From Ferrimonas marina (GTDB lineage: Bacteria; Pseudomonadota; Gammaproteobacteria; Enterobacterales; Shewanellaceae): 64,000 nucleotides of DNA. The translations under genes and the position numbers were made by a program. The stretch spans positions 239,771 to 303,770 of the forward strand of contig NZ_FQXG01000003.1 of NCBI RefSeq assembly GCF_900129905.1, read 5' to 3'. Below the pieces are notes generated by a model, which was not told where the DNA came from, did not search any database, and saw only the letters and a program-made list of their open reading frames with translations. Positions 12,766 to 40,716 of this stretch are shown here, in pieces. Position 1 is the first letter of the stretch; each line of letters starts with the position of its first letter.

Positions 12766-12781
12766 ATATACAAATGTATAT
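12766..12781 (-). promoter_or_regulatory. Operator site 1 (ATATAC-AAAT-GTATAT) within a sigma70 promoter
   Basis: A perfect palindrome overlapping the spacer and -10 of a minus-strand promoter: -35 TTGACT at 12791-12786, 17-bp spacer, -10 TATTAT at 12768-12763. A bound protein would block RNA polymerase. It is one of eight matching sites in the window. Confidence 0.75.
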
Positions 12782-12937
12782 TTAAAGTCAATCGGTTTGG
12801 TCACTCTCTGGGTCATGGGGTGGTGTTGGTTAGCCTGCTCGGGTGCCGGTCACCGTGTGGCAGTGGGGCTGGTGTGCTTGGTTGAACTGTGGCCATGGCA
12901 TTGCTACCATCGCTGCAGTGTTAACGGGGGTAAAAAC

Positions 12938-13462
12938 ATGGCAAAACGGGTGGTTTATCGGAGTGGCTGCTGTAATGACTGGCAGAGCATGTCAGAAATG
13001 CTGGCAGTGGCGCAGTTGCCGGACGATTACCGCGGGGTGGAGTCCGGGTGGGGTGGCATGGTTCTGACGCCCTTTACTGAATCCGGTAGAAGCCTGTTCG
13101 CCTGCGATCCGAAGCGCCATGTCAGCTACCTGCGGGCCCGGATAGGGGTGGCAGTAGACAATGGTCGTGATACCCAGGTCAGTTACCTCTGGTGCAAGAT
13201 GAACACGCCGGATCCGGCAGACATCCTGATGATGGGCTGTGGGCGGCGCCTGGGTGGGGTATTCAACAATAAGCACCCATTGGTACAAGGGGCTGTTGGT
13301 GAGTCTTGTGCGGTCTATCGGGGCGAGGAGGGCGAGCTGCACATTGATGTGAGCGGAAACCCGGCCCTGGCTGAGAAGTTCAGCGTCCCGGTGCCGTTCG
13401 ACCTGGCGGACCAATTGGCAGTGCACCTGTCACAAGAACGAAAAGTCATCGAGGAACAGTAA
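12938..13462 (+). CDS. Hypothetical protein coupled to paralog D
   Basis: 174-residue soluble protein with a Cys-Cys near the N-terminus (RSGCCNDW) and conserved-looking aromatic/Gly segments (ESGWGGMVLTPF). No family recognised. The start is ATG after GGGGG; the frame stays open upstream, but with an unlikely Trp/Cys-rich sequence. Its TAA overlaps the ATG of the next gene (TAATG), so the two products are translationally coupled and probably work together. Confidence 0.65.
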   Translation: MAKRVVYRSGCCNDWQSMSEMLAVAQLPDDYRGVESGWGGMVLTPFTESGRSLFACDPKRHVSYLRARIGVAVDNGRDTQVSYLWCKMNTPDPADILMMGCGRRLGGVFNNKHPLVQGAVGESCAVYRGEEGELHIDVSGNPALAEKFSVPVPFDLADQLAVHLSQERKVIEEQ

Positions 13463-14346
13463 TGACGCAATCGCATGCCGTTAAGGAAGACGGCGCCCGC
13501 ATCGGTCGGCCACCAGGGGATGTTCTGACCCGCGCCGGCATCAATACTCAGGACGAACTGATCGAGTTTTGCTTGACCCATGGCCTGGCAAGCCTTGAGG
13601 CGCTGGGTCGCCATATGGCCATTTCCGGTGCCGCGGTGGGCTCGTCGGTGCGCACTCGCGGGATTTGTTGGCGCGAGGTGCAAGAAGAGCTGTGCCAACA
13701 GGGCCTGCAGCCAAGCTTCGGTACCAGTCGCTACGATACTGAGCTTGAGGATGCGCTGAAAGCCGGTGAGCAGGCGTTGGCTGAGTATCTGCTTAACCTG
13801 GGTTGCAGTGATGTGACCGATGCCTGTCGCAAGTTGCAGATCACCTACCGGCCCTTCGCCAATCGACTGCGCGACATGGGGACCTCCTCCAGTGCGGTCA
13901 CCGAGGAGATGGCCTACCGCCAGGGCAACGTGACCTTCCCGATGTACTGGCGGCGGCATCCGCGTGAGCAGATCCACCAAGATGTGCGCAAGAGCGCGGC
14001 CACCGGGTTACAAGTGTTTTGTCGCTCGATGGGTTTTTGTGCCCACGGCGCGGCGCAGTTCGCTGGCCGCCAGCAGCTGGATTTTGACCGAGAGGTGTTG
14101 CTGCCGGTGGCGGTATCTGCCGGTCGGGAAATGGCGCTGACGCTGGCGGTGCTGGCGCCAAGGTTTCCTGAAGCAGCCGGTGCGTTGCAGACGGTATCGT
14201 GGCGTGATGTTGAGGCGCAGGCGGTGCGCGTCTTTGGCCAGAGCCGTTGGGTATCTGGTCTGGCTCGATTGCTGGGCAAACGGCGCTGTCAGGAGTTGGC
14301 GGTGTGGCTCAGGGCGGGACCCCAGGGCCAGGCGAAGTTGCAGTAG
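13462..14346 (+). CDS. Multi-HTH paralog D (divergent)
   Basis: Fourth member of the HTH family at 8252-11634, here with only one clear HTH (INTQDELIEFCLTHGLASLEALGRHMAISGAAVGSSVRTRGICW). It keeps the C-terminal block (FPMYWRRHP, LQVFCRSMGF, LPVAVSAGREMALTLAVLAP, VSWRDVEAQAVRVFG). It starts inside the stop codon of the preceding gene (TAATG), unlike the A-C copies that have their own promoters. Predicted DNA-binding; target unknown. A large inverted repeat starts 3 bp after its stop. Confidence 0.7.
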   Translation: MTQSHAVKEDGARIGRPPGDVLTRAGINTQDELIEFCLTHGLASLEALGRHMAISGAAVGSSVRTRGICWREVQEELCQQGLQPSFGTSRYDTELEDALKAGEQALAEYLLNLGCSDVTDACRKLQITYRPFANRLRDMGTSSSAVTEEMAYRQGNVTFPMYWRRHPREQIHQDVRKSAATGLQVFCRSMGFCAHGAAQFAGRQQLDFDREVLLPVAVSAGREMALTLAVLAPRFPEAAGALQTVSWRDVEAQAVRVFGQSRWVSGLARLLGKRRCQELAVWLRAGPQGQAKLQ

Positions 14347-14349
14347 GGG

Positions 14350-14404
14350 TAACGTATACGTTCCATTTAGGGCGGAAATCGGTGGAAAAGGAACGTATAC
14401 GTTA
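14350..14404. repeat. Perfect 15-bp inverted repeat with palindromic AACGTATACGTT arms
   Basis: TAACGTATACGTTCC (14350-14364) and its exact reverse complement (14390-14404) are separated by 25 bp. Each arm itself contains the 12-bp palindrome AACGTATACGTT. It directly follows paralog D. No T-run follows, so it is not a standard terminator; it fits a two-site protein-binding locus or a cruciform. The core GTATAC recalls the half-sites of the regulon operator. Confidence 0.65.
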
Positions 14405-14583
14405 CTTTTCGGGTTCCGCCGGCGTCGGCGGGGTATGGGATGGGGTGTTGTTGCCCTTGGTGTGGATCGTGGACATTGTTTTGATGTCTAGCACTAGAGG
14501 TCGGGGTAGGGCTTCGCTAAGGTACTTTACGGCTGGGCCTGGTTGCCTATAGAGCATCAAGTGGTTGCAGGAGTCGCTTGGTG

Positions 14584-14604: not shown

Positions 14605-14617
14605 TGGAGCTAAAGCG

Positions 14618-15357: not shown

Positions 15358-15374
15358 CGCTCTAGCTTGCTTAA

Positions 15375-21569: not shown

Positions 21570-23219
21570 TTAGCCATCGAAGGCCAGTGACAGCTGGGGT
21601 TGCCCGTTAAACGTTGCCAGCGTCCGGGCGATGGCGGCACCGATGGCACTGCCGATGTCCCGCCACATGGGTGGGCTGATGGCGTTGCCGACCAGTTCAC
21701 TGCCGGCACGGCTGTGCTTGCGGGGGCGGCGGGTTTTGCCATTGCTGTCACGGTTGCCGAGCGCTTCCCGTTCGATGGTGGCAATCACCTGGGCTTGATC
21801 GGCCTCGTCCCACCCCATAGCGCGGGCCCGCTCAAGCGGGGTGATCTGCCGATGGCCTTGTTCACCAACGATGACGCAGGTTTTGTACCCTCGCCAGTAT
21901 TGGGCGCCGATGCAGCCAATCCGGGTTTCGTCACCGGTGAGCTGTTTGACCTCAAAGCCATTGCCCTTGGCCAGCTGAGCTTCACCACGGGCAATCCCCT
22001 TGCTCATATCCGACCATGCGGAGTCCGGTACTGGCTGCAAGAGCGCGTTGAGTGGCACCTGATTGGCGGGTCGGGTCGGAATGACTTGCAGTTCCACCGA
22101 AATGGGTGGAAGCGTAAACAGCGCGGCCAGGCGCGGGCGCTGCTCCATTGCGCCGTGGTCGGACGCACAGCGCACCTCGTAGCTGAACTGGTAGCCCAAA
22201 CCCTGCATCCAGGTGATCAGCAGTTTCATCGAGAGGTCGTTAAGCGCGGCGTGCACGTTCTCTAGTACCACAAACAGGGGGCGGGACTGTGAAGCAAGGG
22301 CGTACAGACCCATAAACAGGCTGTTCTTTTCCACTTCGTCCATCGGCTTGGTGGCGGTGTTGGGAGTGGCCATCCGCTCGAGGCGTTCTAGCCGTTCTGT
22401 CACCTCCGCCAGCACGGTGGTGTCGTTGCGCTGCGCCAGGCGTGCCAATGCAAGCTTCAAGGCGGGGAGTTCTTCCCCCAGGGCCTGGCTGGCGCTGTCA
22501 TCCAGGGCTTTGTCCTGGCGGGCTTTGCTCATGCGCCGGCGCCGGTCTGCCTCTGCTAGGCTGCTGAGACTGGTGCAGGGCAAGCTGGCGACAATGCCGT
22601 CTGTCCTGGGTAGCGGCTGCGACAGCATCTGCTGCAGCGGCAGGTGATAGCAGATGGCATCCGGATTGTCCTGCCAAACCGGGGAGTGGGCCACCGCCAT
22701 GCTGCCGACGGCGGGGTCGGCCTCGCAGCTGTAGGCCAGCTGGGCCGGTACATGCTTACTTAGCCCGTCGATGATCGCGCGGGTCAGGATGTCACCGCCA
22801 CTGCAGATGCTGGCAATGGTAAGTTTTCCGCCACGCTTGAGTTTCTCGGCAAGGGCCTGCCATTGTTGGCGGTCCTGCAAGGCAGTGAGGCTGGTGAGGA
22901 TCTCAATCAGGCCTTCCCGCAGGACGAAGTACACCGACTCCGTGTGGCGATACAGGGAATGGATGGTCTTGTTGACGATATCGATGACACCGTGCTCTTT
23001 GCCGGCAATGGTGCGGCGGATAATGGAGTGTTTGCCGTCGGCATCGGGCACCAGGGTGGTCCGGGTAACGCCGGGGGTGAGACGGACTGGGGTGCCCACC
23101 GGGATGGCCCGGTTGATGGCGGCCCCTTCGTAGTAGAGCCGTCGCTGTTTACGCTTAAGGCCCAGGTTCACTTTGGCAATCCCGGTTAGGCGCTGCATCA
23201 ACTTGCTGGCGGTCTTCAT
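21570..23219 (-). CDS. Orphan DNA cytosine-C5 methyltransferase A
   Basis: Transfers a methyl group from S-adenosylmethionine to cytosine C5 in DNA. Motifs: SAM-binding SICSGGDIL (138-145), catalytic ASLPCTSLS with Cys215, ENV (320-322) and EQRPRL (about 358). C-terminal segment SELVGNAISPPMW resembles motif X. 549 aa; a long N-terminal extension (about 130 aa) precedes motif I, and an Arg/Lys-rich insert follows motif IV. The start ATG has GAGG upstream and follows the stop of the preceding gene by 1 bp. No restriction enzyme gene is adjacent, so it is probably for self-protection against host restriction or for regulation. Confidence 0.9.
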   Translation of the reverse strand: MKTASKLMQRLTGIAKVNLGLKRKQRRLYYEGAAINRAIPVGTPVRLTPGVTRTTLVPDADGKHSIIRRTIAGKEHGVIDIVNKTIHSLYRHTESVYFVLREGLIEILTSLTALQDRQQWQALAEKLKRGGKLTIASICSGGDILTRAIIDGLSKHVPAQLAYSCEADPAVGSMAVAHSPVWQDNPDAICYHLPLQQMLSQPLPRTDGIVASLPCTSLSSLAEADRRRRMSKARQDKALDDSASQALGEELPALKLALARLAQRNDTTVLAEVTERLERLERMATPNTATKPMDEVEKNSLFMGLYALASQSRPLFVVLENVHAALNDLSMKLLITWMQGLGYQFSYEVRCASDHGAMEQRPRLAALFTLPPISVELQVIPTRPANQVPLNALLQPVPDSAWSDMSKGIARGEAQLAKGNGFEVKQLTGDETRIGCIGAQYWRGYKTCVIVGEQGHRQITPLERARAMGWDEADQAQVIATIEREALGNRDSNGKTRRPRKHSRAGSELVGNAISPPMWRDIGSAIGAAIARTLATFNGQPQLSLAFDG

Positions 23220-24162: not shown

Positions 24163-24804
24163 TTAGGCGGCCAGCTCGTCCGCAGCGTCGTCTTCGTCGA
24201 CGTCTTCGGCCTTGGGCTCGGCCAGCTTGCCGGGCTTGATGATGGTGAAGCTGTCCGCCAGCTGATCCGCGGTGTCCTGCCAGAACTGCTGCAGTGCAGC
24301 GACGGTGTCAAAGCGCGGTGCGCTGTCGTCGGCGGTTTGTACCGCCCAGCAGGTTTCCGCCAGCAACAGGCGCTGCGCCACCAGCTTGGGCTTGTCCGGG
24401 TTAACGGTCTTCACTGCGGTGTCACCGGCCTTGTGGTGGCTGGTGGGGAAGGGCAGGGCAATGGTGAAGTCGCCGTGGGTTTTGCCAGTCACCTCACAGG
24501 CGAAGCGGTCGGACTGATAGCGGGCTTCAACACGGGGCAGTAGGATGGGGGCCAGGGCCTGTGCGGCGTCCTCCAGGGCGTTGTCAGCGGCCTCCGCCAG
24601 CTCCAGCAACTCCTGCTGGGTTTCGGCGTCCTCCACCAGCTTGGCCAGGGCCGGGATCGCCTTGGCAATCTTAAAGCCCAGGGTCAGGTGCTTGGTCACG
24701 GTGCCGGTCTTGGACAGGCGGTGATCGCTCTGGGACACAGTCTCGGCGGTGAAGCCGTTGTTGTCCAAAAATAACGTGGTGCTGCCTAGCTGAAGAATGG
24801 CCAT
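24163..24804 (-). CDS. Hypothetical first gene of the methyltransferase A operon
   Basis: 213 residues. The N-terminal 60 are beta-rich (MAILQLGSTTLFLDNNG), the middle is Ala/Leu-helical, and the C-terminus is a strongly acidic tail (EDVDEDDAADELAA) of the kind seen on single-strand DNA-binding or DNA-mimic proteins. I do not recognise the family. SD GGAGTAGAGAAA. A sigma70 promoter with the regulon operator lies just upstream, so this gene leads the operon to the methyltransferase. Confidence 0.65.
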   Translation of the reverse strand: MAILQLGSTTLFLDNNGFTAETVSQSDHRLSKTGTVTKHLTLGFKIAKAIPALAKLVEDAETQQELLELAEAADNALEDAAQALAPILLPRVEARYQSDRFACEVTGKTHGDFTIALPFPTSHHKAGDTAVKTVNPDKPKLVAQRLLLAETCWAVQTADDSAPRFDTVAALQQFWQDTADQLADSFTIIKPGKLAEPKAEDVDEDDAADELAA

Positions 24805-24843: not shown

Positions 24844-24859
24844 ATATACCAAAGTATAT
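24844..24859 (-). promoter_or_regulatory. Operator site 2 (ATATAC-CAAA-GTATAT) inside a sigma70 promoter
   Basis: -35 TTGCAC (24871-24866), 17-bp spacer, -10 TATATT (24848-24843), with the palindrome spanning the -10 and downstream spacer. Controls the 24804 to 21570 operon. Confidence 0.75.
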
Positions 24860-29288: not shown

Positions 29289-29304
29289 GTATACAAAAAT
29301 ATAT
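29289..29304 (-). promoter_or_regulatory. Operator site 3 (GTATAC-AAAA-ATATAT)
   Basis: One mismatch from a perfect palindrome. A minus-strand promoter is readable: TTACCC (29316-29311), 17 bp, TATACT (29293-29288), with the operator filling the -10 and downstream spacer. It drives the 29162, 28965 and 28297 genes. Confidence 0.65.
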
Positions 29305-29999: not shown

Positions 30000-30422
30000 T
30001 TAGCTGGCAGCGCCGGGGGAGGGCACACCGCCCTCGACCAAATACAGCTCCATACCGTTGGCCGGGTGGAACACCGGGTCGCTGTCCTCCAGTGACTGCA
30101 GGTAGCTGCCATCAAGGCCAATCATGGCGTGTGAGGTGCGGTCTTTGTAGATGGACACCGCCACCTCGCCTTGGGTGTCCGGGTCAATGACGGTGACGTC
30201 GATGACGTGATCGGCTTGGCCGGACTGGTTCTCCGGAGCGAGGTTGATTTGCTCGCACAGTGCTTCAATCTCATCGGCATTGAGCGGGGCAGTGCCATCG
30301 CGGAAGTGCGCCATGTCAGTGAACAGGTTGTCCCGCTCTTGCTCCGGGGTTTGCTCGATGGTGTCCTGCATCATCCGCAGGGCGGCAAGAATGGTGGTGG
30401 TCTTTCGGTCGGTAAACATCAT
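30000..30422 (-). CDS. Hypothetical protein of the methyltransferase B operon
   Basis: 140 residues. Helical first half (ILAALRMMQDTIEQTPEQERDNLFTDMAHF), beta-rich second half. The double ATG at 30422 follows AAGGACCGTTGAA. No recognised family. It is immediately downstream of methyltransferase B (60-bp gap). Confidence 0.6.
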   Translation of the reverse strand: MMFTDRKTTTILAALRMMQDTIEQTPEQERDNLFTDMAHFRDGTAPLNADEIEALCEQINLAPENQSGQADHVIDVTVIDPDTQGEVAVSIYKDRTSHAMIGLDGSYLQSLEDSDPVFHPANGMELYLVEGGVPSPGAAS

Positions 30423-30482
30423 TTCAACGGTCCTTGTAACGGGTGAGGGGTGGTGGCGGGGCGGACCCGCCACCGGGTGGGG

Positions 30483-31910
30483 TTAGGCAGCAATGCGGGC
30501 GTTGGGGCTGACCGCAATCTTCTTCAGTTGCAGTGCCAGATGGTAGTACCACGACTCGGAGATATGGCCGATGAGGCCGTTACCGAGGATCTGGGTGGCG
30601 CCGGTGAAGGGCACGTTGTCCACCAGAGCCGGATCGATCTCTTTGGCGCGGCACTGTTCAAACTGGTTGAATAGGCGGTAAGTGTCCGGCTCAGTCGGAT
30701 GGGCGTAAAGCGGATCGGAGCTGCCACCTTTGTGGTACTGGGCGCGCAGGGTGCTGAGCTTGGATTCCGGGCCACGGTAAATCTGCATGGCAAAGCTGTT
30801 GCCCTTGGCCGCATCGCGCTTCTCTTTTTCGAACAGGTAGGATTTGTTACCCCAGCTGCGGTGGTCAAGCGGCACATCATCAAGGATGTCGGCAACGTTC
30901 TGGGCTGGGGTCCACAGCGGGACGATGTCATTGAGATCCAGCACCTGCCCCAGACCGGCGGAGGTGAACATCACGTACATGCGTTCGCGACCTTCCAGCG
31001 AGAACCCTTCGGCATTAGCGTTGATGTCCCGGCGCTGCATGTTGTAGCCCATATGGCGCATCACCGCGCAGAACACATGGAACGAGGCTTCGTTGGCAAA
31101 TCCCCGGACGTTCTCCATCATGATGATGGCGGGGTTGGTCTGCTCCACGAAGCGCGTGTAGAAATACACAAGATGCGCAGTCTGCTCGCTTTCGCCTTTC
31201 AGGCCCTTCTTGGATTTGCCGGCAATGCTGGCGTCGGTGCAAGACGGGGTGATGGAGGCGTAGTCGAGTTTCAGCTCGCTGTCGAAGTTCAGCGCCGCCA
31301 AGTCGCCTTCAATCAGCATGGAGCGCTCATCGAACAGGTGCGGGCAGTTCTGGGCTAGGTTTTCCACGGCATTGGCATCGAAGTCGATGGCCACCCGGAT
31401 GACGGAGGCCAGACCGGCGCGCTTGAAGCCTTTGTCGCCGCAGAAGTCCTTAGTGCCACCACCGGCGAACACGGAGCCCTTCTCCAAGGGCAGGCCGTTT
31501 TGTAGCTTGTGCAGCAGGCGTTCCTCGCGCTCCTTTTGCTTCTGGGCAATGCCGTCCACATTGAGGCGGATGAGGATCCCTTTCTCGGAGTGGAAGATGC
31601 GGATGTTACTGCCCTCGGGCACATCCTTGAGGGTAGGGCAGCGCATTTCAGAGATTTCGATCAGCGGCACTAGGCCTCGCGCGGTCTTGCGTTTGGAGAC
31701 GGTGAACTCACCGGCATCGCAGGTAAAGTCGAGCAGGATCTCACCCTTGGCGGCGTTCTCGGTGATGGTGTAGGGCGCGCCCGGGCTGGTGACCAGACCC
31801 AGTCGATGGCCCTCCAACCAGACCCGGTTCTCAACCTTGGGCGGCAGGTCGGGATTGGCTTTGTTCCTGCGCTCAACAGTGTTGATGGGCTTCAATTGAA
31901 GTAGTTTCAT
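30483..31910 (-). CDS. Orphan DNA cytosine-C5 methyltransferase B
   Basis: Motifs: SVFAGGGTKDF (motif I, about 146-156), acceptor strand VAIDFDANAVENLA, catalytic ASITPSCTDAS with Cys224 (PSC instead of the usual PCQ), ENV (266-268) and QGRERMYVMF (motif VIII). About 120 residues without similarity to known domains precede motif I. It differs from methyltransferase A in length and motif detail, so probably has another target sequence. Start ATG with GGAG 8 bases upstream; a sigma70 promoter with operator site 4 precedes it. No cognate endonuclease nearby. Confidence 0.9.
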   Translation of the reverse strand: MKLLQLKPINTVERRNKANPDLPPKVENRVWLEGHRLGLVTSPGAPYTITENAAKGEILLDFTCDAGEFTVSKRKTARGLVPLIEISEMRCPTLKDVPEGSNIRIFHSEKGILIRLNVDGIAQKQKEREERLLHKLQNGLPLEKGSVFAGGGTKDFCGDKGFKRAGLASVIRVAIDFDANAVENLAQNCPHLFDERSMLIEGDLAALNFDSELKLDYASITPSCTDASIAGKSKKGLKGESEQTAHLVYFYTRFVEQTNPAIIMMENVRGFANEASFHVFCAVMRHMGYNMQRRDINANAEGFSLEGRERMYVMFTSAGLGQVLDLNDIVPLWTPAQNVADILDDVPLDHRSWGNKSYLFEKEKRDAAKGNSFAMQIYRGPESKLSTLRAQYHKGGSSDPLYAHPTEPDTYRLFNQFEQCRAKEIDPALVDNVPFTGATQILGNGLIGHISESWYYHLALQLKKIAVSPNARIAA

Positions 31911-31930
31911 CACCGTAACTCCGTTTGTCA

Positions 31931-31946
31931 GTATATGTAAGTATAT
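31931..31946 (-). promoter_or_regulatory. Operator site 4 (GTATAT-GTAA-GTATAT) at the methyltransferase B promoter
   Basis: -35 TTGACC (31971-31966), 17-bp spacer, -10 TAATAT (31948-31943). The operator overlaps the -10 and start region. The left half-site has one mismatch (GTATAT for GTATAC). Confidence 0.7.
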
Positions 31947-32203
31947 TAGCAGGGCGGCAGGATCGGGTCAACAATAGGCAGTAAATAAACACGCATATTT
32001 AATGGTTTGCGGATGGTTGTTAGTCGGGTCAGTCATCTACGTTGGGTTTGGGCCAAGACCTGCGCCCTTGGATATTCTCAGCGGCAACTCACTTCGCTTG
32101 ATCAGTATTTTTCTGTTGTTCCTTAGGTTAAAGGCGCGCAGGAACGAGGTTTGACGATAACTTCATGATGAACCAGGGGAATTACTCTAAAAATCTGCCG
32201 TTG

Positions 32204-32219
32204 ATATACTTTCGTATAT
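32204..32219 (+). promoter_or_regulatory. Operator site 5 (ATATAC-TTTC-GTATAT)
   Basis: Perfect half-sites, lying next to a plus-strand promoter: TTCAAT (32219-32224), 17 bp, TATAAT (32242-32247). The operator ends at the -35. The transcript would enter the structured leader at 32261 and the 32490 gene. Confidence 0.65.
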
Positions 32220-32260
32220 TCAATTTGTGAGGTGGTTGCGTTATAATTAAGGGGTAGGAC

Positions 32261-32475
32261 AGATTCCCCGGGCAGGCCAAGATGGTTTGCCCCCGGGCAC
32301 AAAGCGTGAATAAGGTAGCGGCAATGTCGCTTGCTAATTCTGCTGGTGGTTCCGGGTCAGCTAAAGGCACTGGGGTCGGGAAAGGCAGTGCGGTGTGCGC
32401 ACTGAAATGACTTGGCGCCATTGGGTGCTGAAGACGGCCGCCTTGTTGCACGTTGCAGGCGGTGGGAATGAGTGG
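32261..32475 (+). ncRNA. Candidate structured leader RNA (gene-free 215 nt)
   Basis: GC-rich 215-nt stretch between a TATAAT promoter and the 32490 gene. Hairpins: 32267-32297 (CCCGGG ends with an inner bulged stem), 32317-32331 (AGCGGC/GTCGCT, 3-nt loop) and 32386-32404 (CAGTGCG/CGCACTG, 5-nt loop). CAGTGC (32386-32391) can instead pair with GCACTG at 32367-32372, so two exclusive folds exist, as in riboswitches and attenuators. A 42-codon ORF from 32282 reads through part of it but looks non-coding. Confidence 0.4.
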
Positions 32476-32489
32476 ACAGGAGAAGGTGC

Positions 32490-33008
32490 ATGAGCGCAGA
32501 AATGCCAACAAAGGTAGAAGGTCAGGACGGTATCAACAATAAGTTCACTGGTGGGCCCGTAACAGCGACTATGGGTGTCCGGCAGACAGCAGAGCTATGG
32601 CAGATGCTCGAGCAGGAACTGAAGGTGTTGGAAGAAACGGCACGGAAGAATGCGGAGTGGCAGTTGGCAGCAGGTTATGCCTTGAGTGGTGTCGATTGGG
32701 TGGAGATTGTGGCCGGCCCACAAGAACTCGGGCTTGGTAAGCGTGATCGCAACTGGGGCCGGGGGACGCCTTTGGCGGTAAGTCGGTCCGTTCGGGACTC
32801 GGTTATGACTGATAAGCTAGGCTTGGATCTGGTGCCGCAGCCCGATGATGCCTGTTCTCGGGGGATGATCAGCAACGCCTTTGATGAGGTGTTCGCCTAT
32901 AAGCTCAAGCATGGTCTGACCCAGTACCGTGGTACAAATCTGCATCCGGATGAGTACGACCGTCAGCGCAAGCTGAAGCGGGAGCAAGAGGCGGGTTTGG
33001 CCCGTTAG
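32490..33008 (+). CDS. Hypothetical regulon protein (172 aa)
   Basis: Soluble helical protein (TAELWQMLEQELKVLEETARKNAEWQ) with a basic C-terminus and no recognised domain; DRQRKLKREQEAGL at the end looks like a coiled-coil or RNA/DNA-binding helix. SD AGGAGAAGGTGC. Transcribed from the promoter at 32219-32247, under operator site 5, with a 240-nt structured leader. Confidence 0.6.
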   Translation: MSAEMPTKVEGQDGINNKFTGGPVTATMGVRQTAELWQMLEQELKVLEETARKNAEWQLAAGYALSGVDWVEIVAGPQELGLGKRDRNWGRGTPLAVSRSVRDSVMTDKLGLDLVPQPDDACSRGMISNAFDEVFAYKLKHGLTQYRGTNLHPDEYDRQRKLKREQEAGLAR

Positions 33009-33115
33009 CAGATGAGTCTGGTTGGCGGCTCGGTGGCGACACCGGGCCGATTTGGTTAGGGTCGGTGGGGCCTGAGAAATCGGCACTTATTTGGCAATTA
33101 TGCTGGCATCCATCC

Positions 33116-33131
33116 GTATACTTTAGTATAC
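33116..33131 (+). promoter_or_regulatory. Operator site 6 (perfect GTATAC-TTTA-GTATAC)
   Basis: Two perfect GTATAC half-sites. A -10-like TATACT lies at 33127-33132, within its right half. Drives the leader and 33381 gene. Confidence 0.75.
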
Positions 33132-33164
33132 TTAAAGGGTGGTAAAACAAAGGAGCCACTGAGA

Positions 33165-33197
33165 ATGAAACCGCATCAAAACGCTTACAAGGCTTGA
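33165..33197 (+). CDS. Possible leader peptide (10 aa)
   Basis: ATG preceded by AGGAGCCACTGAGA, reading MKPHQNAYKA, then TGA. It is the first translatable frame after the operator site 6 promoter and before the folded leader, as in attenuator or arrest-peptide arrangements. Too short to confirm from sequence alone. Confidence 0.35.
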   Translation: MKPHQNAYKA

Positions 33198-33199
33198 TG

Positions 33200-33350
33200 C
33201 CCAACCCACCCACGTGGGTGCCACGGTGACGCGGAGGACAGTCCGGAAGGACGCTCGCCAGACGGGTTTAGTGGCAGCAATAGGGGACAACCAAGATAGT
33301 TGCCGACCGGCGAGCACTCGTCGCGGCCACAAGCCTAGACGGGTCGACAG
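33200..33350 (+). ncRNA. Candidate structured leader RNA with pseudoknot potential
   Basis: Perfect 14-bp palindrome at 33207-33220; GTCC-GGAA-GGAC tetraloop hairpin at 33241-33252. GCTCGCC (33253-33259) pairs perfectly with GGCGAGC (33309-33315), and GGTTTAGTGGC (33265-33275) with GCCACAAGCC (33326-33335, one bulge). These two helices interlock as a pseudoknot. A competing helix (GGCA 33273-33276 with TGCC 33301-33304) would exclude the second. No ORF fits. Fold and function are inference. Confidence 0.4.
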
Positions 33351-33380
33351 GGTGGAACACACCAACTGGAGACCTGGATT

Positions 33381-34403
33381 ATGGAAAGCATCAACAACTG
33401 GCAACAGCTCAGCGAAGCGCTGGATCTGGACAACCGAGGCAACGCGCTGGCGTATGTGGAGTTTGTCCCGCTGCATGCCTCCGGCAACTATGGCGTTCAC
33501 CTGAACGACCTCGGTGAAGCCGAGCGGGCTGCGCTGTGCGCCAACGCCCCGGGGATCGCCGCCCAATCGGTCTGTCGCAATGACCCCGATGTCACCTTCG
33601 GCGAAACCCTGAACTTCCCGTTCGAGCGGGGGGATTTTATGAAGCTGGTCACCCGCTTGCTGTGGCAGCAGATCGCAGACTGGCTGCGTGAAGCCTACTC
33701 CATTCATGATCAGGCAGCGTTGGATTTTTGCTGCTCCTTCTTCAACGACGACAAACTGCTGGAAAAAGCCCTGGCGCGTAAGGACTTTGAGGTGTTGGTC
33801 GAAGACATCGACGGCTGTCATTACCACCCCTACTATGACGACGGCGAGTGGCTCCAGAACTGGGTCGGCATTGGCTTTGCCTACGACGGCGATGAGGACT
33901 GTCTAAGCATCGTGTTCAGCGATTTCGATGGCTCTGATTGGGATAATGATCGCTATCCGCTGCCAGAAGAGTGGGCCTATGTGCAAAACAAGATCCGGGC
34001 ACTGGAGCAGCCGACTGATTTGACCGAATACTACCAGTGGGTGCTGGAACACGGTGAAGACCCGCTAGACCAGGGACCGGCTGTGCGTGGTTGGTGCGAC
34101 ATCGCCGTTGAAGTGTGCTGTGAGGCTGAGGGCACCTTCCGGGTCGAATCAGTGCAGGCCGCCTGGCGGAACCCGGAACTGCCGGCGCTGACTGCCGAAA
34201 GCCTGCTGGTGTTTTGGAGCACCGAGGAGTTTGAATGGCGCGAGGGCCAGGTGGTGCCTACCAAGCTGGGCGTTGAGAACCTCACCTCCGTGGGGATGAA
34301 ACCAGGGGAGCTGCGTTCCTTTGACCTGGCGGGATTGGAGAGCCTGCCGGGGGATCTGTATCAGCAGCGCCTTAAGGCGTGGGCCCAGGAGCAATTGAGC
34401 TAA
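33381..34403 (+). CDS. Acidic, Trp-rich hypothetical protein
   Basis: 340 residues with a high Asp/Glu content (YDDGEWLQNWVGIGFAYDGDEDCLSIVFSDFDGSDWDNDRY) and many tryptophans, no recognised domain. The ATG follows CTGGAGACCTGGATT. It sits alone, followed by a strong terminator, under operator site 6 after a structured leader. Acidity recalls DNA-mimic anti-restriction proteins such as ArdA, but the sequence does not match ArdA; that link is speculation. Confidence 0.7.
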   Translation: MESINNWQQLSEALDLDNRGNALAYVEFVPLHASGNYGVHLNDLGEAERAALCANAPGIAAQSVCRNDPDVTFGETLNFPFERGDFMKLVTRLLWQQIADWLREAYSIHDQAALDFCCSFFNDDKLLEKALARKDFEVLVEDIDGCHYHPYYDDGEWLQNWVGIGFAYDGDEDCLSIVFSDFDGSDWDNDRYPLPEEWAYVQNKIRALEQPTDLTEYYQWVLEHGEDPLDQGPAVRGWCDIAVEVCCEAEGTFRVESVQAAWRNPELPALTAESLLVFWSTEEFEWREGQVVPTKLGVENLTSVGMKPGELRSFDLAGLESLPGDLYQQRLKAWAQEQLS

Positions 34404-34410
34404 TGCAGTC

Positions 34411-34433
34411 AGGGGGGCTTGCCCCCCGTTTTT
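34411..34433 (+). terminator. Rho-independent terminator of the 33381 gene
   Basis: GGGGGGC/GCCCCCC stem with TT loop and T5, 10 bp after the stop codon. Confidence 0.9.
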
Positions 34434-34556
34434 GTGCTGATGAGTGCCAGGGTGGCTCATCTCATGAGTTTTGCGGTTGGCCTGGTTGTCGGGGTGCAAA
34501 TGAAAGCATGGTGCGCCTATGCTTGCGGTATTGCCCAGTAAACAGAGGATCGCGTC

Positions 34557-34652
34557 ATGGTTAAGATGACCCTGGATAACAAGCTGGTGATCGGCACCGT
34601 GGTTGCCACGGTGCTGTGCGTCGGGTTGGTGTTCTGGATGGTGTTGGGCTGA
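34557..34652 (+). CDS. Small single-pass membrane protein (31 aa)
   Basis: Reads MVKMTLDNKLVIGTVVATVL followed by CVGLVFWMVLG, one transmembrane helix. AGAGGATCGCGTC precedes the ATG. Too short for most gene finders; stable small hydrophobic proteins like this are often regulators or toxins of type I systems, but no antisense RNA is evident. Confidence 0.5.
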   Translation: MVKMTLDNKLVIGTVVATVLCVGLVFWMVLG

Positions 34653-34687
34653 GGCCTTCCCCAATCGCTTGAGGCGCCAGGTGTTCG

Positions 34688-34936
34688 TCAGTGCAAGGAA
34701 GAGGCCGGGCCGAAGGCCTGCTCGTACATCCAGAGTAACGCACTTCGATGCTGTTCCAGCTGCAGCACCATACCCAGGTCTTTGTAGCGCCGCGACACGG
34801 TCACTCGGAAATCCCAGTAATCACGGATCACTCTTAATGCGGCTTCGCTGTCGCCCTGGTCAATGCAACCCTGCAGGGCGCGCTCAAGCGCCACCGCCCG
34901 ATCCCCAATCCTATCGACATCTGCATTCGCAATCAT
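34688..34936 (-). CDS. Small helical protein (82 aa)
   Basis: Helical charged protein (ALERALQGCIDQGDSEAALRVIRDYWDFRVTVSRRYKDLGMVL) with good SD (AGAGGTGCCC). It lies on the same strand as the DUF2384-domain gene (35046-35387), 110 bp apart. Possibly a partner in a toxin-antitoxin-like unit; no RES toxin motif is visible. Confidence 0.6.
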   Translation of the reverse strand: MIANADVDRIGDRAVALERALQGCIDQGDSEAALRVIRDYWDFRVTVSRRYKDLGMVLQLEQHRSALLWMYEQAFGPASSLH

Positions 34937-35045
34937 TGGGCACCTCTGTCACTGCGCTAAGACAGCCATAAGCATACAGAGGCAAGCGGGCCCTCGATCG
35001 CCGGTAGGTAGGGGCGGTGAGTTGCTGGCGGACCTTAGTGGGGGG

Positions 35046-35387
35046 TTAAAGCGGGTCCCTTTCCTGACCTTCGGGCTGGTCACGGTCAGCCATGAAGTCC
35101 TCCGTGACCTGGCCCAGCGGGGCCTGTCGAGACTCCAGGTAGTCCACCACCGCTGCTAACCCAGCGGGGGAATGCACCAGTTCTGCGGGCCTGCCGTTGA
35201 GGCTGCGGTGCTCCGTGGTCATGAAGTGGTGCATGTTACCCAGATCGCCACCCATCAGTTTGACCAGGGCGGTGTGGGCGCGTACCAGCAGCAAGGGGTC
35301 GCCACTGAAGGTTGCGAGGCCCAGTTGCGCTGAGGCGCGGTTAGCAGCTTGGTCCAAAACGGCGTTGGGGTCCTTTTCTTCGGTCAT
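35046..35387 (-). CDS. DUF2384 (MbcA/ParS/Xre antitoxin C-domain)-like protein
   Basis: The last two thirds (about 40-100) match the shape of the Xre/MbcA/ParS toxin-binding domain: HHFMTTEHRSLNGRPAELVHSPAGLAAVVDYLES. No N-terminal HTH, so it is a short domain-only form (113 aa). The usual RES-domain toxin is not next to it; the adjacent 82-aa gene has no RES features. Antitoxin assignment is inference; start ATG has GGAG-like AGGAGCCACAGTC upstream. Confidence 0.6.
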   Translation of the reverse strand: MTEEKDPNAVLDQAANRASAQLGLATFSGDPLLLVRAHTALVKLMGGDLGNMHHFMTTEHRSLNGRPAELVHSPAGLAAVVDYLESRQAPLGQVTEDFMADRDQPEGQERDPL

Positions 35388-35499
35388 GACTGTGGCTCCT
35401 TAGGGGTTACCCTGGCGCGCGGCGTACCAGTGACCATCATCTTAAGCTCTACACCAGCACTGGCAAAAGACCTTGCCCAAACAGTTAAGTAGCGGAGGG

Positions 35500-36288
35500 C
35501 TATTCGTAGCCACCCATGGCCTTGGATTGGAGGTAGTTGTAGACCATCTCGTAGCCATCCACTTCCCGGTCTTGGAACAGCTGCAGTGGCGTTTTACCCA
35601 GCGCCGGTGGTGCCTCGTTGGCAAGCCAGGTTAGGGCTCTGGACTGTGGCAGGTTGGTGCAGTTCTGAAAAGCAATCAACAACCCCAGTAGCCGACGGGC
35701 CTTGGCCTGGAATGTGGCATCGGCAGTGATCGCCTCGGTTATGGCCGGCACGGCTAAAAGCGGTGCCAACTTGGTGGGGCTGATCTCCAACAGGTCCTGC
35801 AGGTCATCGGCGGTGATGCGGGGCAGGATCAGCAAGTCCAGGGCGCCGAAGGGACGGTCCACCGGTGAGGGGTGATCCTGGGCGAACGGTGCGCGGATGT
35901 GTGCTCGTTGTTGCTGGTACCGCGGTACCGCAGAATCCTTGAGGTGCTCGTACAGGCTGATCAGGCCCTGGAGGCCGTCAGCATGGATCCGGTCCGCCGG
36001 CGAGAGGTCCTGGGGGTCTGGGAACGGGTGCTGAATCCAGGATAATGCTTGGCGCTGGGCGAGCCCCAGTGCCAGGTCCAGGCCCGTGACAATGGCCAGC
36101 AGCCAGCGGCAGCGCTGCTGGGTCTGCTCTGTCCACGCTTGCGTGTTGGGTAAGCCCAGTAACAGCCTCATCCCTGGTGCGTCGGTTTCAAACAGTGTCA
36201 GGGCATCCGCTTCCTTGACGGTCTCTGAGCTGAGCAGGTCAAGGGCGCCAAAGGCGGACTGGAGCGAGGGTCGGGTGAGTGAATTCAT
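35500..36288 (-). CDS. Protein with two tandem DUF2384-like domains
   Basis: 262 residues made of two homologous halves. Each begins with FGALDLL and ends with the DUF2384-type pattern: QRQALSWIQHPFPDP ... SLYEHL and SRALTWLANEAPPAL ... MVYNYL. This internal duplication is not usual for the family. Upstream lies a 300-bp region of CACTTAA repeats and a GTGGCAC/GTGCCAC inverted repeat, so it may be autoregulated. DNA or toxin binding is inferred from domain identity only. Confidence 0.6.
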   Translation of the reverse strand: MNSLTRPSLQSAFGALDLLSSETVKEADALTLFETDAPGMRLLLGLPNTQAWTEQTQQRCRWLLAIVTGLDLALGLAQRQALSWIQHPFPDPQDLSPADRIHADGLQGLISLYEHLKDSAVPRYQQQRAHIRAPFAQDHPSPVDRPFGALDLLILPRITADDLQDLLEISPTKLAPLLAVPAITEAITADATFQAKARRLLGLLIAFQNCTNLPQSRALTWLANEAPPALGKTPLQLFQDREVDGYEMVYNYLQSKAMGGYE

Positions 36289-36322
36289 GGCTGCGCCTGC
36301 GCTGATGCTGTTGTGACCTAAT

Positions 36323-36536
36323 GTGGCACGTAATCAAGTTAGTGTGCCACTTAACAAATTGAAAACCGGGCAAAATCACACTTAAGCGCATGATGATTCA
36401 GGGGAAAAAAGTTGGATTTTTTTGCGGTCAGGGCCTGGGGTTCCCCAAGCCGGTGATGGAGGGGGGCAAAATTCACTTTAAGAAATGCACTTAAAAGTAC
36501 CCCTTTGGTATAGAAATACGGCCCAAACTTAAAGTG
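36323..36536. repeat. CACTTAA repeat cluster with inverted repeat
   Basis: GTGGCAC (36323-36329) and GTGCCAC (36344-36350) form an inverted repeat. CACTTAA or close variants occur at 36348, 36379, 36474 (CACTTTAAG), 36488 (CACTTAAAAGT) and 36526 (AACTTAAAGTG, opposite strand). The region (36289-36587) holds no gene. It is probably the control region for the 35500-36288 gene. Confidence 0.55.
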
Positions 36537-36587
36537 GGGCGACCCGGAACGTCCAATCGTCTGCTTGCTCTTAGGGGGCAGCCGGGC

Positions 36588-37070
36588 CTAGGTCGCGGCC
36601 AATCGCAGCAGGCGGATCAGTGCGTCAGGCTTGCTCAGGTAGAGCTGCACCAGGTCGGCGGTGCCCATCGCGGCCTGATGCAGGATTGTGGGCAGGTGGG
36701 TTTTGCGACCGAGCGCGCTTTGGCACTGTTCCAGGGTCTTCTGCTGCAGCCCTAACAGCATCATTGCCAAGCGCCGGTGACGCGTTGGGTCCTTCATCCA
36801 GCTGCGGACCGTGGAGGATGGGACAGGCAGGACGTTGATGGCCAGGGGATCTGGGAGGCCTAGCGTGGTCGCCAGGCTTCGCACATCCAGTGTGGTTCCG
36901 GTCGTCCATTGCTGTTCCCAATCTACTGGCATCTGCAGGCTCTGATGGATGCCGAGACGGAGTAGACCCAGATACTCAGGGCGATGCTGTCGCCACTTCA
37001 ACAGGGTATGCACCGAGATGCTGGCGGATTGGGCGATGTGATGTAGCTCGTCGTTGGTCACGGTCGTCAT
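36588..37070 (-). CDS. HTH-type protein cotranscribed with the DndC-like gene
   Basis: 160 residues with an N-terminal HTH-like segment (NDELHHIAQSASISVHTLLKWRQHRPEYLGLL). A second one follows at about 60-110 (DVRSLATTLGLPDPLAINVLPVPSSTVRSWMKDPTRHRRLAMMLL), like plasmid XRE regulators. It starts 14 bp after the DndC-like gene stop, so it is in the same operon. It may regulate that operon; the relation to the nearby operators is unknown. Confidence 0.6.
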   Translation of the reverse strand: MTTVTNDELHHIAQSASISVHTLLKWRQHRPEYLGLLRLGIHQSLQMPVDWEQQWTTGTTLDVRSLATTLGLPDPLAINVLPVPSSTVRSWMKDPTRHRRLAMMLLGLQQKTLEQCQSALGRKTHLPTILHQAAMGTADLVQLYLSKPDALIRLLRLAAT

Positions 37071-37083
37071 GTCGGGCTCCCAG

Positions 37084-40000
37084 TTAGGCGGCGATAGAAC
37101 GAAGCAAATCGTTTCGCTGCGACAGGGTCAGGTTTGCGGCGATGTTGCGCTGGGCGGCTTGCGCGTCGTGCTCCAGTTGGTCCAAAAGGTCATTGATGCG
37201 GGCAGTGGCCTGCTCACACTGGGACAGGGCCTGTCGCTGGCGTAGGCCAGGTTTCGCAGCATCCAGGGGGTCCTGGGCGGGTTGATTCAAAAGGGTCTTG
37301 GCCTGATCCACCACCAGGGCCCAGGTCTGCAATGCAGCGCGGGCTGCGGTGACGATGTCGCTAACCGCGGTGCTGATCTCGCGTTGGGCCGTTACGTGGA
37401 GGCGGAAATCGCTTCGCAGGTAGTCCGCCTGGTTTTTGGGGAGGTAGCGCTTGGCGATGTCCTGAGCGCTCGCCAGGTGGTCGGTATGCAGCGCAAGCCA
37501 TAGCCCTGCCACCTTCGCTTGAGTGCCAGCGGTGGCGTCAGGGTGTTGTCCGGGCTGTCCCAGTGCAGCTGCAAACGTGTCGTGGATATGGCTGAGCAAC
37601 GCCTGTTGGGCGCGGGGGAATAGCTCCGCCTTGATGGTGTTCAGGGAGGCCTCGCAGGCCTGTTTGGGGTTGTTTGTTACGGCCTGGATGGCAAGGCGGG
37701 TTTGCTGGCGCTGCGCATTGCGAATGCGGCGGATCTCCAACAGCACCTGGGACTTGTCCTGGCGGTGTTGCGCCATCGAGACGGTAAAGGGCAGGTCCAG
37801 CAACTGTTGCTGATTCAGGGCCTGGTAGTCAAAGGCGCCGATCTCATCGAACAGTTGGGTGCGGGACAGAATTGCGGTCAGCTGGCCATGGTAGTTCTGA
37901 GCGACGCTGACAACCGCATTGGCAAGCAGGTGCTCGCAAGCGCCGGTACCGGGGTAGTGGCGTACGCTGCGATGGTCGCGGCGCAGCGAACTGCCCTGGC
38001 GTCGGCTCACCCACTGATCGTGGCATTCAAGGGCGTTGTCGAGTCCGCCTCGTTGGATCCAGTCTGCCAGCATGGCGGGGGAGACATCGATGTTCTCAAC
38101 ATCGGAGATCTGACCCGCGTAGCGCATTGGATTGGTCTGAAGTTGCAAGCTCTGGGCTGCGTGGGTGGAGAAGCTCAGATCCTGCAGGCTGGCGGTGTGC
38201 TGGTGATCTTGGGCGAGTGCGGGTTGGGTAGAGGCCTTGTAGAAAAGCATCCGGGTGTTGCCCCGTAAGGCTTTGCCGCGCTGCATGCGGGTCACCCGCT
38301 TGGTGAACTGGGCAGAGTGTGTGCGCTTGCGGCCCTGTTGGGTGTGTGTGACGGAGATTTGCGCCTCTGCCAGGTGCGGCACGGCTTTTTTCATCGCGTG
38401 TTGGCCGCTGAAAGTGCGTTGGGCTACCTGCTGAAACAGTGCCAGGGCATCTTGCTGGTTGGCCGGCTGCTGGGCGTGATAGAGGCGCTCGCGAAATACA
38501 TCGACAAGTTCGCCGAAGCGTTGGGTGGTGTGTTCGTTGATCTCTGCCCCCAGAATCTCCCAGGTGCCGTCACGGAGGCTTTTGCCGTTCAGGCGGACCT
38601 GGGCAATGGCGGGGTTATCGGGGGTGATGCACACCCACTGGGTGCCTTCGTCGTGGTACAGCGCCAGGTAGTAGCCGTCTTCCGCGGGTTCAGTGGGCTG
38701 CTCACAGTGGCTGTATTGGTACGCAAACTCTGCAGTCCACTGTAGGGGGCAGGTTGAGGAGGCGAACTCTTCGACGGCGCAATTGCGCTCAGGGTCAAAC
38801 ATGTCCGAGGTGCCAAGCGGGCGGCGCCAAAGGTTCAGCAGTGAAATCGGGTTGCGGGCAAACTCTGCAGGGTCCTCGTGCTGAAGAGCCGGCATCATTA
38901 CCGCGTCAGGTAGCGGGGTCTGCAGGGAAATGGGGCCGTGGCGAGCGGTAAACTCATCATTGGTCTCAGGCCAGGGCAGACGCTTGCCGTTGACGGCATC
39001 GACCCAGAGTTTCAGGGGCCGGTAAGGGGCGGCTGCAACGCCATCGAGGGACCAGCGGAATGACAGCAGTACGGCATGCTCCATTGAGAACAGGCGAAAC
39101 ATGGGTCGGACGGCCTGGGACCGGTACATATCCAGCATACCAGCGCGGGTCTTCTCGCTGAGCAAAGGGTCGTTGAGGATGTCGGCGTAGCCTGGGTGTT
39201 GATCCAGGGTGCCGTTCTCAAGGTGCTGGCGGAAATCCGCAGCGGCATTCTGCGAGTCGACGGTCAACTGAGCTGCGTAGGCGATGATCTTGTCGAGCCA
39301 GCGGCTTTTAAGCATGTTGGGCTGCAGAGCAATGCGGTTGTAAGCGGTGGGGTCGAAGGCCCGGGCGTGAAAACCACGGGCTTCTGGGCTGGCGGACAAA
39401 CGCAGCAGGAAGTCGCGCAGGCGCAGGGCGTTCTCTGCACCCAGCACGTTCCAGCGGGGGTAGCGGGTCAGAGCCTTGCCGCTGGAATCCTCGATCGGCA
39501 TAGTGCAAAAGGCGCAGCCGTATCGCGCTTTGCCGTTGCAGCCGGCACTGGCGGTGGAGCCGATCACCACCTCACAGGTGTCAGCGGAGCCGTTGCCGTA
39601 GATCTCCAGCAGCACCCCCATGTGCGGCAGGAAGCTCTCGATGAGGGTGCCGCCGTGCTCCGGTTGGTATTGGGGGCGAACAACAGGATCGGTGCCGGCG
39701 AGGCTCAGGGCGTCGAACACATCGGCGGTCGCCCAGTCCTTGATGGGGGCGAGCTTGAGGATGCGGGTGTTGCTCCGGCCGGTATCGAGCTGTTCCATCT
39801 CGCCAAGCAGTTGTTCCAGGCCTTTGTCAGTCAGTCCATGGTTGCGCATCTTGCGTGTCCGGGTGTTGCCCTCCGCGGTGCGGGAGCCAACACAGCAAAT
39901 GGCGGTGGCGTCAGCATAGCGCGCCATTTCAGGGTCGTGGGAGAAGCGGTTGTTCAGGCTGCGCAGGTAGCGTTCGTTGGTGGCGATTTTGAGGATCTGG

Positions 40001-40479
40001 CTGCAGTCCGCGCTGCGGCTAGCGTTGGGGATCAGCTTCTGGCCGCCGGCCCAGCGCACCATGTACTGGTCCTGCAGGGCAGGCTCGACCATGTCGTAAT
40101 ACAGGTTGATCCCGATGTGCTGGGCGTACTGCTCCAGCTTGTCACGGCAATAGGCCGGGTACATCTCCATGGGGAGGGATTCGCCGGTGGTATTCACGGT
40201 GGCGATCACCAGGGGGCGCTGCGCCTCAATCAGCGCCTCGGTAATGGCTTCGCGGTAGGCCTGAAGGCCTGCCAATTCCACCAGGGTGGAGTCTTTGCCT
40301 TGGGAGACCGGCAAGAACAGGTAGAGGTTGGGATCGTGAGCGAGCAGCGCCTTTAGGGTATCCACCAAAATCCGGTACTGGCCGAAGAGGTAGCGGTGGC
40401 GCTCGGCGGTGGCCTGGTCCAGTGCTGTGACGTCAATGGTCTGGACAGCGTGGTTTTTCAACAGTGCATCAATGCTCAT
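37084..40479 (-). CDS. DndC-like PP-loop/Fe-S protein (1131 aa)
   Basis: DndC is the Fe-S, ATP-pyrophosphatase-type enzyme of DNA phosphorothioation. Visible: PP-loop VSQGKDS (58-64), Cys159, CC at 195-196, Cys302, and a CNG...GCAFCTM cluster (314, 322, 325) like the DndC Fe-S signature. The N-terminal about 450 residues fit the PAPS reductase/DndC family; the remaining about 680 residues are a C-terminal extension absent from ordinary DndC, Gln/Ala/His-rich and mostly helical. Start ATG preceded by GGAAGGGGATTG. The promoter carries operator site 7. No dndA, dndD or dndE nearby, so the substrate is uncertain: DNA or RNA sulfuration, or another adenylation. Confidence 0.75.
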   Translation of the reverse strand: MSIDALLKNHAVQTIDVTALDQATAERHRYLFGQYRILVDTLKALLAHDPNLYLFLPVSQGKDSTLVELAGLQAYREAITEALIEAQRPLVIATVNTTGESLPMEMYPAYCRDKLEQYAQHIGINLYYDMVEPALQDQYMVRWAGGQKLIPNASRSADCSQILKIATNERYLRSLNNRFSHDPEMARYADATAICCVGSRTAEGNTRTRKMRNHGLTDKGLEQLLGEMEQLDTGRSNTRILKLAPIKDWATADVFDALSLAGTDPVVRPQYQPEHGGTLIESFLPHMGVLLEIYGNGSADTCEVVIGSTASAGCNGKARYGCAFCTMPIEDSSGKALTRYPRWNVLGAENALRLRDFLLRLSASPEARGFHARAFDPTAYNRIALQPNMLKSRWLDKIIAYAAQLTVDSQNAAADFRQHLENGTLDQHPGYADILNDPLLSEKTRAGMLDMYRSQAVRPMFRLFSMEHAVLLSFRWSLDGVAAAPYRPLKLWVDAVNGKRLPWPETNDEFTARHGPISLQTPLPDAVMMPALQHEDPAEFARNPISLLNLWRRPLGTSDMFDPERNCAVEEFASSTCPLQWTAEFAYQYSHCEQPTEPAEDGYYLALYHDEGTQWVCITPDNPAIAQVRLNGKSLRDGTWEILGAEINEHTTQRFGELVDVFRERLYHAQQPANQQDALALFQQVAQRTFSGQHAMKKAVPHLAEAQISVTHTQQGRKRTHSAQFTKRVTRMQRGKALRGNTRMLFYKASTQPALAQDHQHTASLQDLSFSTHAAQSLQLQTNPMRYAGQISDVENIDVSPAMLADWIQRGGLDNALECHDQWVSRRQGSSLRRDHRSVRHYPGTGACEHLLANAVVSVAQNYHGQLTAILSRTQLFDEIGAFDYQALNQQQLLDLPFTVSMAQHRQDKSQVLLEIRRIRNAQRQQTRLAIQAVTNNPKQACEASLNTIKAELFPRAQQALLSHIHDTFAAALGQPGQHPDATAGTQAKVAGLWLALHTDHLASAQDIAKRYLPKNQADYLRSDFRLHVTAQREISTAVSDIVTAARAALQTWALVVDQAKTLLNQPAQDPLDAAKPGLRQRQALSQCEQATARINDLLDQLEHDAQAAQRNIAANLTLSQRNDLLRSIAA

Positions 40480-40508
40480 GAACAATCCCCTTCCTTGATG
40501 ACTCAATT

Positions 40509-40524
40509 ATATACTTATGTATAT
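40509..40524 (-). promoter_or_regulatory. Operator site 7 (ATATAC-TTAT-GTATAT), DndC-like gene promoter
   Basis: -35 TTGCAG (40535-40530), 18-bp spacer, -10 TATAAT (40511-40506); the palindrome fills the spacer and -10, 30 bp before the start codon of the DndC-like gene. Confidence 0.75.
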
Positions 40525-40700
40525 CAATACTGCAAGAAAATTGACCGTATTGGTTACGTGAGCTGAGCCCTTAAATGCAGACCGGTCAAGGCCTTGGTGG
40601 AAGTCGCGGCGAGCATGGGGCGCTTAAGCAACAGAAAGCCATATTGTAGAAATTATTGCCGTATGGGTTTACACCAGGGCCAGTCGTTGGTAATCTCTAG

Positions 40701-40716
40701 GTATACAAAAGTATAT
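40701..40716 (+). promoter_or_regulatory. Operator site 8 (GTATAC-AAAA-GTATAT), DndB-like gene promoter
   Basis: Palindromic site 17 bp before the DndB-like start codon; TTGGTA is possible as -35 but the spacing is imperfect. Together with site 7, 177 bp away, it gives coordinated divergent control of the two Dnd-like genes. Confidence 0.7.

Follow-up and report, generated by a model that had tools for sequence, protein, structure and literature searches.

The palindrome RTATAC-N4-GTATAY appears to mark a large regulon on the 576,248-base contig NZ_FQXG01000003.1 (C10), one of the 18 contigs of the 4.98 Mb genome of Ferrimonas marina, where it lies at promoters and gene starts and to which it is nearly restricted. 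Our window, the 64,000-nucleotide stretch at positions 239771-303770 of this contig, contains eight sites described in an earlier note; the evidence for the plasmid-wide regulon proposed there, in which a single operator overlies sigma70-type promoters, is good, and the regulon extends far beyond those eight. We infer that a dimeric repressor encoded by the plasmid itself binds these sites as its operator, and we propose, by analogy with other conjugative plasmids, that its targets would escape repression when the plasmid enters a naive cell. We give this reading a probability of roughly 0.55.

Contig counts cover C10 minus 65,412 masked bases, and genes were called with a home-made hexamer scorer, with approximate starts and an approximate intergenic share. 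Allowing at most one mismatch, C10 holds 54 sites, 27 of them exact. A whole-genome search at this tolerance gave 58 forward places, two of which, among the matches listed, lie on contigs C6 and C7 and carry one mismatch each; this leaves 56 near sites for C10, as against 54 in the direct count. The genome-wide exact count is likewise 27, which leaves none for the other contigs, and the palindrome does not occur at that density elsewhere in the host. Within the contig, 47/54 sites (24/27 exact) are intergenic, compared with an intergenic share of 13.6% of readable sequence, and only 7/54 fall within called genes, although these make up 86% of the readable contig; the pattern is thus not equally frequent in coding DNA. 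Thirty first-order simulations of intergenic DNA yielded no exact site and a mean of 0.17 near sites. A site was present within 250 nt of 59/250 transcription units at 178-461 kb, compared with 5/142 elsewhere on C10, and this site-rich block starts beside the DotH/DotI genes. Counted by gene, 69 have an upstream site (41 on the minus strand, 28 on the plus strand), or 98 when likely operon partners are included.

Exact copies were absent from 100 dinucleotide shuffles of the window, and 10 sites with up to two mismatches were observed there, compared with a mean of 1.09 per shuffle. The eight sites are as follows (window coordinates).

12766..12781, minus strand: exact; 27 nt upstream of the gene at 12247-12738 (minus strand; 164 aa, no Pfam match)
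24844..24859, minus strand: exact; 39 nt upstream of the gene at 24166-24804 (minus strand), with TTGCAC at the -35 position
29289..29304, minus strand: operator-like, one mismatch; 126 nt upstream of a called 57-aa open reading frame (ORF)
31931..31946, minus strand: operator-like, one mismatch; 20 nt upstream of a C5 cytosine methyltransferase gene
32204..32219, plus strand (guessed, with no near gene start): exact
33116..33131, plus strand: exact; 33 nt upstream of a leader ORF of 10 codons (33165-33197, found by eye)
40509..40524, minus strand: exact; 29 nt upstream of the DndC-like gene
40701..40716, plus strand: exact; 16 nt upstream of the DndB-like gene

All eight lie between called genes, as the earlier note had stated. 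Its further claims, that each carries the palindrome and always adjoins a gene start, hold in part: six copies are exact (12766, 24844, 32204, 33116, 40509 and 40701) and those at 29289 and 31931 are not; sites 12766, 24844, 31931, 40509 and 40701 precede a good start by 16-39 nt, but no convincing start lies near 29289 or 32204, and 33116 precedes its 10-codon ORF. Site 33116 stands 249 nt upstream of gene 33381, and the interval 33132-33380 forms a long leader containing that ORF. Rfam gave no match in the window, nor in the stretch 31900-33500.

Across the contig, a called start lies 12-63 nt downstream of 33/47 intergenic sites, compared with 30% when intergenic positions are taken at random and 49% when they are AT-rich, the latter control including the operator sites themselves. 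TTG occurs 10-12 bp upstream of the palindrome in 18/39 oriented promoters, compared with 4/39 read from the opposite strand, and where a -35 is visible the spacer measures 15-17 bp, taking the distal half of the palindrome (TATAT/TATAC) as the -10. Two sites are found at each of three divergent pairs (contig 280279/280471, 323279/323360 and 460253/460334, with 323360 falling just within a called gene), among them both divergent DndC/DndB-like pairs. As judged from sequence, the palindrome is predicted to fill the spacer and -10 of sigma70-type promoters, which is the position of a repressor operator and not that of a MerR-type activator. The latter acts on a 19-20 bp spacer with its palindrome between -35 and -10; with the spacer of 15-17 bp measured here where a -35 is visible, we rejected a MerR-type regulon. 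What we found, a common operator on several plasmid promoters that covers the core promoter, is the pattern of a global plasmid repressor.

To the genes behind these promoters the earlier note had ascribed a switch for DNA modification, which proves too narrow. Among 53 distinct site-adjacent genes scanned against Pfam at curated cut-offs, 15 reached the cut-off and 38 did not. Those with matches include a C5 methyltransferase and DndB in the window and, elsewhere, an L5 gp82-like protein, SSB, a YobI NTPase, a YfbR nucleotidase (5'-nucleotidase), a GmrSD_N fragment, an N6/N4 methyltransferase, RecA, a second DndB, a PAPS-reductase protein, a cold-shock domain, DUF5983, NinX and RCC1; the promoters of the RecA and SSB genes both carry sites. 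The set thus reaches beyond DNA modification, and most of its members are proteins without known function. The window genes concerned with DNA modification are listed below.

30486..31910, minus strand: C5 cytosine methyltransferase, regulon gene
37087..40479, minus strand: DndC-like protein, 1131 aa; sites also lie upstream of a paralogue (contig 319788-323207)
40733..41926, plus strand: DndB-like/DGQHR-domain protein, 398 aa; sites also lie at the start of a paralogue (contig 323339-324670)
21573..23219, minus strand: second C5 methyltransferase, 549 aa; a member only via a possible operon

The DndC-like and DndB-like genes belong to the set, as had been claimed, with sites 29 nt and 16 nt upstream. 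Of the two cytosine methyltransferases claimed as members, the gene at 30486..31910 has its site 20 nt upstream; the gene at 21573-23219 would belong only as the distal member of an unproven operon running from site 24844. The 1131-aa protein has no Pfam match, and PADLOC DndC profiles match part of it; DndB profiles match two C10 proteins, as expected of DndB/DndC-type components of the Dnd phosphorothioation system, and the regulon includes two DndB-like/DndC-like pairs.

From its replisome-type and type IVB conjugation genes, C10 is probably a giant, conjugative plasmid. Among the matches listed for its first ~147 kb are DNA polymerase III alpha, polymerase I, topoisomerases, a UvrD helicase, and tubulin-like and flagellar proteins, and DotH, DotI and T2SS/T4SS ATPase families match at ~162-177 kb. 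The conjugation genes are collinear with those of a 938-kb plasmid of Vibrio parahaemolyticus, which has matches for 81/603 called C10 proteins. We also observed that flagellar families, a sigma-70 region 2 match (108753-108959) and DNA polymerases occur together in the first ~147 kb of this conjugative-looking element; that nine GTATCG-N3-CGATAC palindromes lie within ~2 kb at contig 125788-127657, with a tenth at 317896, resembling a centromere or partition site; and that ten CCCGCC-NN-GGCGGG inverted repeats, mostly ~61 bp apart, occupy window 58874-59553, with no called gene but overlapping a mechanical ORF at 59092-59769.

In the model that we favour, repressor bound at the spacer and -10 would block RNA polymerase, and in an established host 50-odd promoters would be held low. 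Once the plasmid enters a repressor-free cell, or the repressor is lost, these promoters would fire together, and the burst would supply establishment functions: SSB, RecA, methyltransferases, DndB/DndC-like proteins and many small proteins without known function. Expression would end once the repressor accumulates.

Comparable circuits are known from other plasmids. KorA and KorB of IncP plasmids are global repressors with plasmid-wide operators over promoters and derepression in a new cell; C10 resembles them in the plasmid-wide placement of operators over promoters and differs in the operators, the controlled genes and the backbone. Excerpts of the published work describe ArdK of R388 as a repressor of Pssb and PardC, with an overshoot of transcription following transfer (PMC3937220), and RP4 shows zygotic induction (PMC7314908); the burst at entry is proposed by analogy with these two. 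ArdK and the CUP elements of IncN also set one repressor over dispersed promoters, including those of ssb and an anti-restriction gene, the post-transfer overshoot being that of R388, but these excerpts describe a handful of promoters compared with ~50 on C10, which is moreover giant and carries replisome-type genes (PMC3937220, PMC6289460). Leading-region anti-defence islands likewise contain methyltransferases, SSB and genes without known function that are expected to act on entry; they differ, as far as the excerpted account goes, in that their anti-defence, methyltransferase and SSB families lie on the transferred strand only and use single-stranded DNA promoters, whereas C10 has palindromic double-stranded sites on both strands (PMC11541004).

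The regulator was sought in the genome itself with the HTH_3, Peptidase_S24, TetR_N and sigma-70 region 2 families. HTH_3 matches on C10 (E < 0.001) lie at contig 243187, 480927, 372739 and 207580; TetR gave no match on C10, and both Peptidase_S24 matches (E up to 1) lie on contigs C16 and C18. Two CI-like proteins were considered as candidates, and neither is favoured.

2991..3620 (window), minus strand: CI-like HTH_3 protein, candidate regulator, disfavoured; its own promoter contains CGTTATCA-N6-TGATAACG

This gene, proposed earlier as a helix-turn-helix (HTH) candidate at 2988, is an unlikely regulator given the different palindrome in its own promoter; of the other genes proposed, 36588 has no Pfam match and 52753 only below-cut-off HTH matches. 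The second CI-like protein (contig 372664-373326), encoded by the second gene past the site between recA and gene 371976, is unlikely for a similar reason, its own upstream palindrome being TAACAC-N7-GTGTTA; beside a relative with 30% identity, encoded by a further genome from the genus, stands a different, imperfect palindrome, which also argues against such a role. This protein had no match among plasmids and viral contigs, three weak matches confined to the HTH part among phages, and one match besides its own genome in 40 relatives. Single-sequence structure models of the two CI-like proteins (predicted local distance difference test scores of 33 and 49) were too poor for use, inspection by eye of the small regulon proteins revealed nothing decisive, and the reversed-sequence control of a position weight matrix scan was uninformative at low scores (63 vs 71 at score 8, 14 vs 60 at score 14). 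To go by the distribution of its sites, the regulator would be dedicated to the C10 element and most likely encoded there; its family may be one that no profile covers, and it could be one of the 38/53 scanned neighbours without a match at the cut-off. Separately, window 8252-14346 holds four of seven contig paralogues, one with a below-cut-off PafC/MarR-type HTH match.

Outside C10 the operator is rare. Exact matches occur in 46/152 genomes of the family, with 27 in the F. marina genome and 1-3 in each of the others, and the operator with TTG at fixed spacing in 17/394 genomes of the order, with seven copies in F. marina and one in each of 16 others. Seven plasmids selected because they encode DndB- or methyltransferase-like proteins had no exact site, and 14 near sites compared with 17 in the reversed control. 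Neither the family genomes nor these plasmids share the set, and no close relative of C10 was found. A near-identity search of plasmids with window 30000-42000 and a search of genome contigs with the window DndB protein found no match, an alignment search for the DotH type found six distant loci in Aureimonas and Acetobacter, and a literature search for the operator returned nothing judged relevant.

A different, operator-like palindrome, TTTAAT-N-ATTAAA, occupies two giant Vibrio plasmids. Exact copies number 28 in the V. parahaemolyticus BM8A plasmid and 30 in the V. vulnificus FORC_036 plasmid, compared with one each for the reversed control, and five other plasmids have none. They form blocks at the following positions.

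CP099927.1, 252678-362168: V. parahaemolyticus BM8A
NZ_CP015514.1, 201213-311191: V. vulnificus FORC_036

In BM8A, the plasmid to which the intergenic and collinearity results apply, 27/28 copies are intergenic and 26/28 lie in one block at 252-362 kb. The two systems are thus alike in having collinear conjugation genes and mostly intergenic palindromes clustered in one block; they differ in sequence and in position, since TTGAC follows within 6 bp of 15/28 BM8A palindromes, placing the Vibrio palindrome ahead of the -35, whereas that of C10 covers the -10. The homologous C5 methyltransferase genes of C10 and the V. parahaemolyticus plasmid are each preceded by the palindrome of their own plasmid. 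Overlap between the two regulon gene sets was not significant (4/13 vs 9/69, p = 0.12), and the Vibrio RecA and SSB homologues had no TTTAAT-N-ATTAAA site at the distance tested. We know of no description of these Vibrio blocks, although the literature was not searched for this sequence; literature searches on giant plasmids of Vibrio that encode replication machinery yielded, among the entries listed, nothing that we recognised. Comparison of the sequences suggests one regulatory habit with different operators, an arrangement that may recur. In similar surroundings, p380 of Vibrio coralliilyticus (NZ_CP009619.1, 157914-184860) has eight GTCAC-N3-GTGAC palindromes upstream of genes, a further promoter-like repeat.

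Four other explanations were weighed. A plasmid-borne, SOS-like damage response, with its own operator and a repressor released on DNA damage, would account for sites at the classic SOS genes recA and ssb and for CI-like proteins on C10. We consider it unlikely: a Peptidase_S24 match is absent from the contig, and on visual inspection both CI-like proteins appear degenerate at the Ser/Lys positions. Strict LexA boxes (CTGT-N8-ACAG) number only seven on C10 (four intergenic, at 283502, 305525, 346311 and 417518), with none at recA (370804-371835), and no role in repair is known for most of the genes next to sites. The rather fixed geometry relative to starts, together with the single sigma-70 region 2 match on C10, could instead suit an activator site or a promoter element read by a polymerase or sigma factor specific to the plasmid. 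This appears somewhat less likely again, as the spacer, where a -35 is visible, is too short for MerR-type activation, the sigma-like gene may be flagellar, given the flagellar proteins encoded in the same ~147 kb, and palindromy is unexpected in a sigma promoter.

A phage-type immunity circuit, in which a CI-like repressor at many operators silences the element and blocks incoming copies, is improbable. It would resemble the Cluster A mycobacteriophages (L5/Bxb1), for which excerpts of a published account give 20-30 dispersed sites for one repressor per element, with specificities that vary among relatives (PMC6550527); the different palindrome of the Vibrio plasmids is also as expected of heteroimmune elements. 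Those phage sites, however, are described there as asymmetric and mostly off promoters (PMC6550527), and the sites on C10 are palindromic, with 33/47 intergenic ones 12-63 nt before a called start, so we rejected stoperators of this kind. Furthermore, C10 carries conjugation genes, and in its first ~147 kb, the stretch that was scanned as a whole, the families listed (25 out of 124 from Pfam and 25 out of 118 from PHROGs) name replication, flagellar and other proteins but include no capsid, portal or terminase. Least credible is a nucleoid or segregation protein whose many sites, spread over ~300 kb, lie at promoters as a by-product, since they sit at starts and over -10 boxes and GTATCG-N3-CGATAC, with 9/10 copies at 125788-127657, is a better partition-like cluster.

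Several results count against the repressor model as well. The closeness of sites to starts is only moderately significant against AT-rich positions (p = 0.003), no TTG stands at the expected position in 21/39 oriented promoters, and 65 kb of the contig were masked. The HTH_3, S24 and TetR searches gave no C10 gene whose promoter contains the operator, and the promoters of both CI-like proteins hold other palindromes. No relative of C10 with the same operator was found in the plasmid and genome searches above. Finally, the regulon genes lie on both strands, in contrast to the transferred-strand-only leading regions of the excerpted account (PMC11541004).

In summary, the operator offers a direct handle on the regulator, for which it can serve as DNA bait, and regulation defines a set of 69 genes (98 with operon partners), mostly without known function, that the plasmid may need on entry. 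Its 54 near-exact sites would exceed the 20-30 given in the excerpts for Cluster A phages (PMC6550527). A broader and doubtful generalization is that giant conjugative plasmids that carry replisome genes share a phage-like quiescence circuit, in which each lineage would have one repressor, specific for a distinct operator (TATAC-N4-GTATA here, TTTAAT-N-ATTAAA in Vibrio) and silencing ~25-60 entry promoters, here including those of RecA and SSB, that would fire at entry and render related plasmids mutually immune or blind. The Vibrio parallel, at least, suggests a general control logic for giant plasmids.

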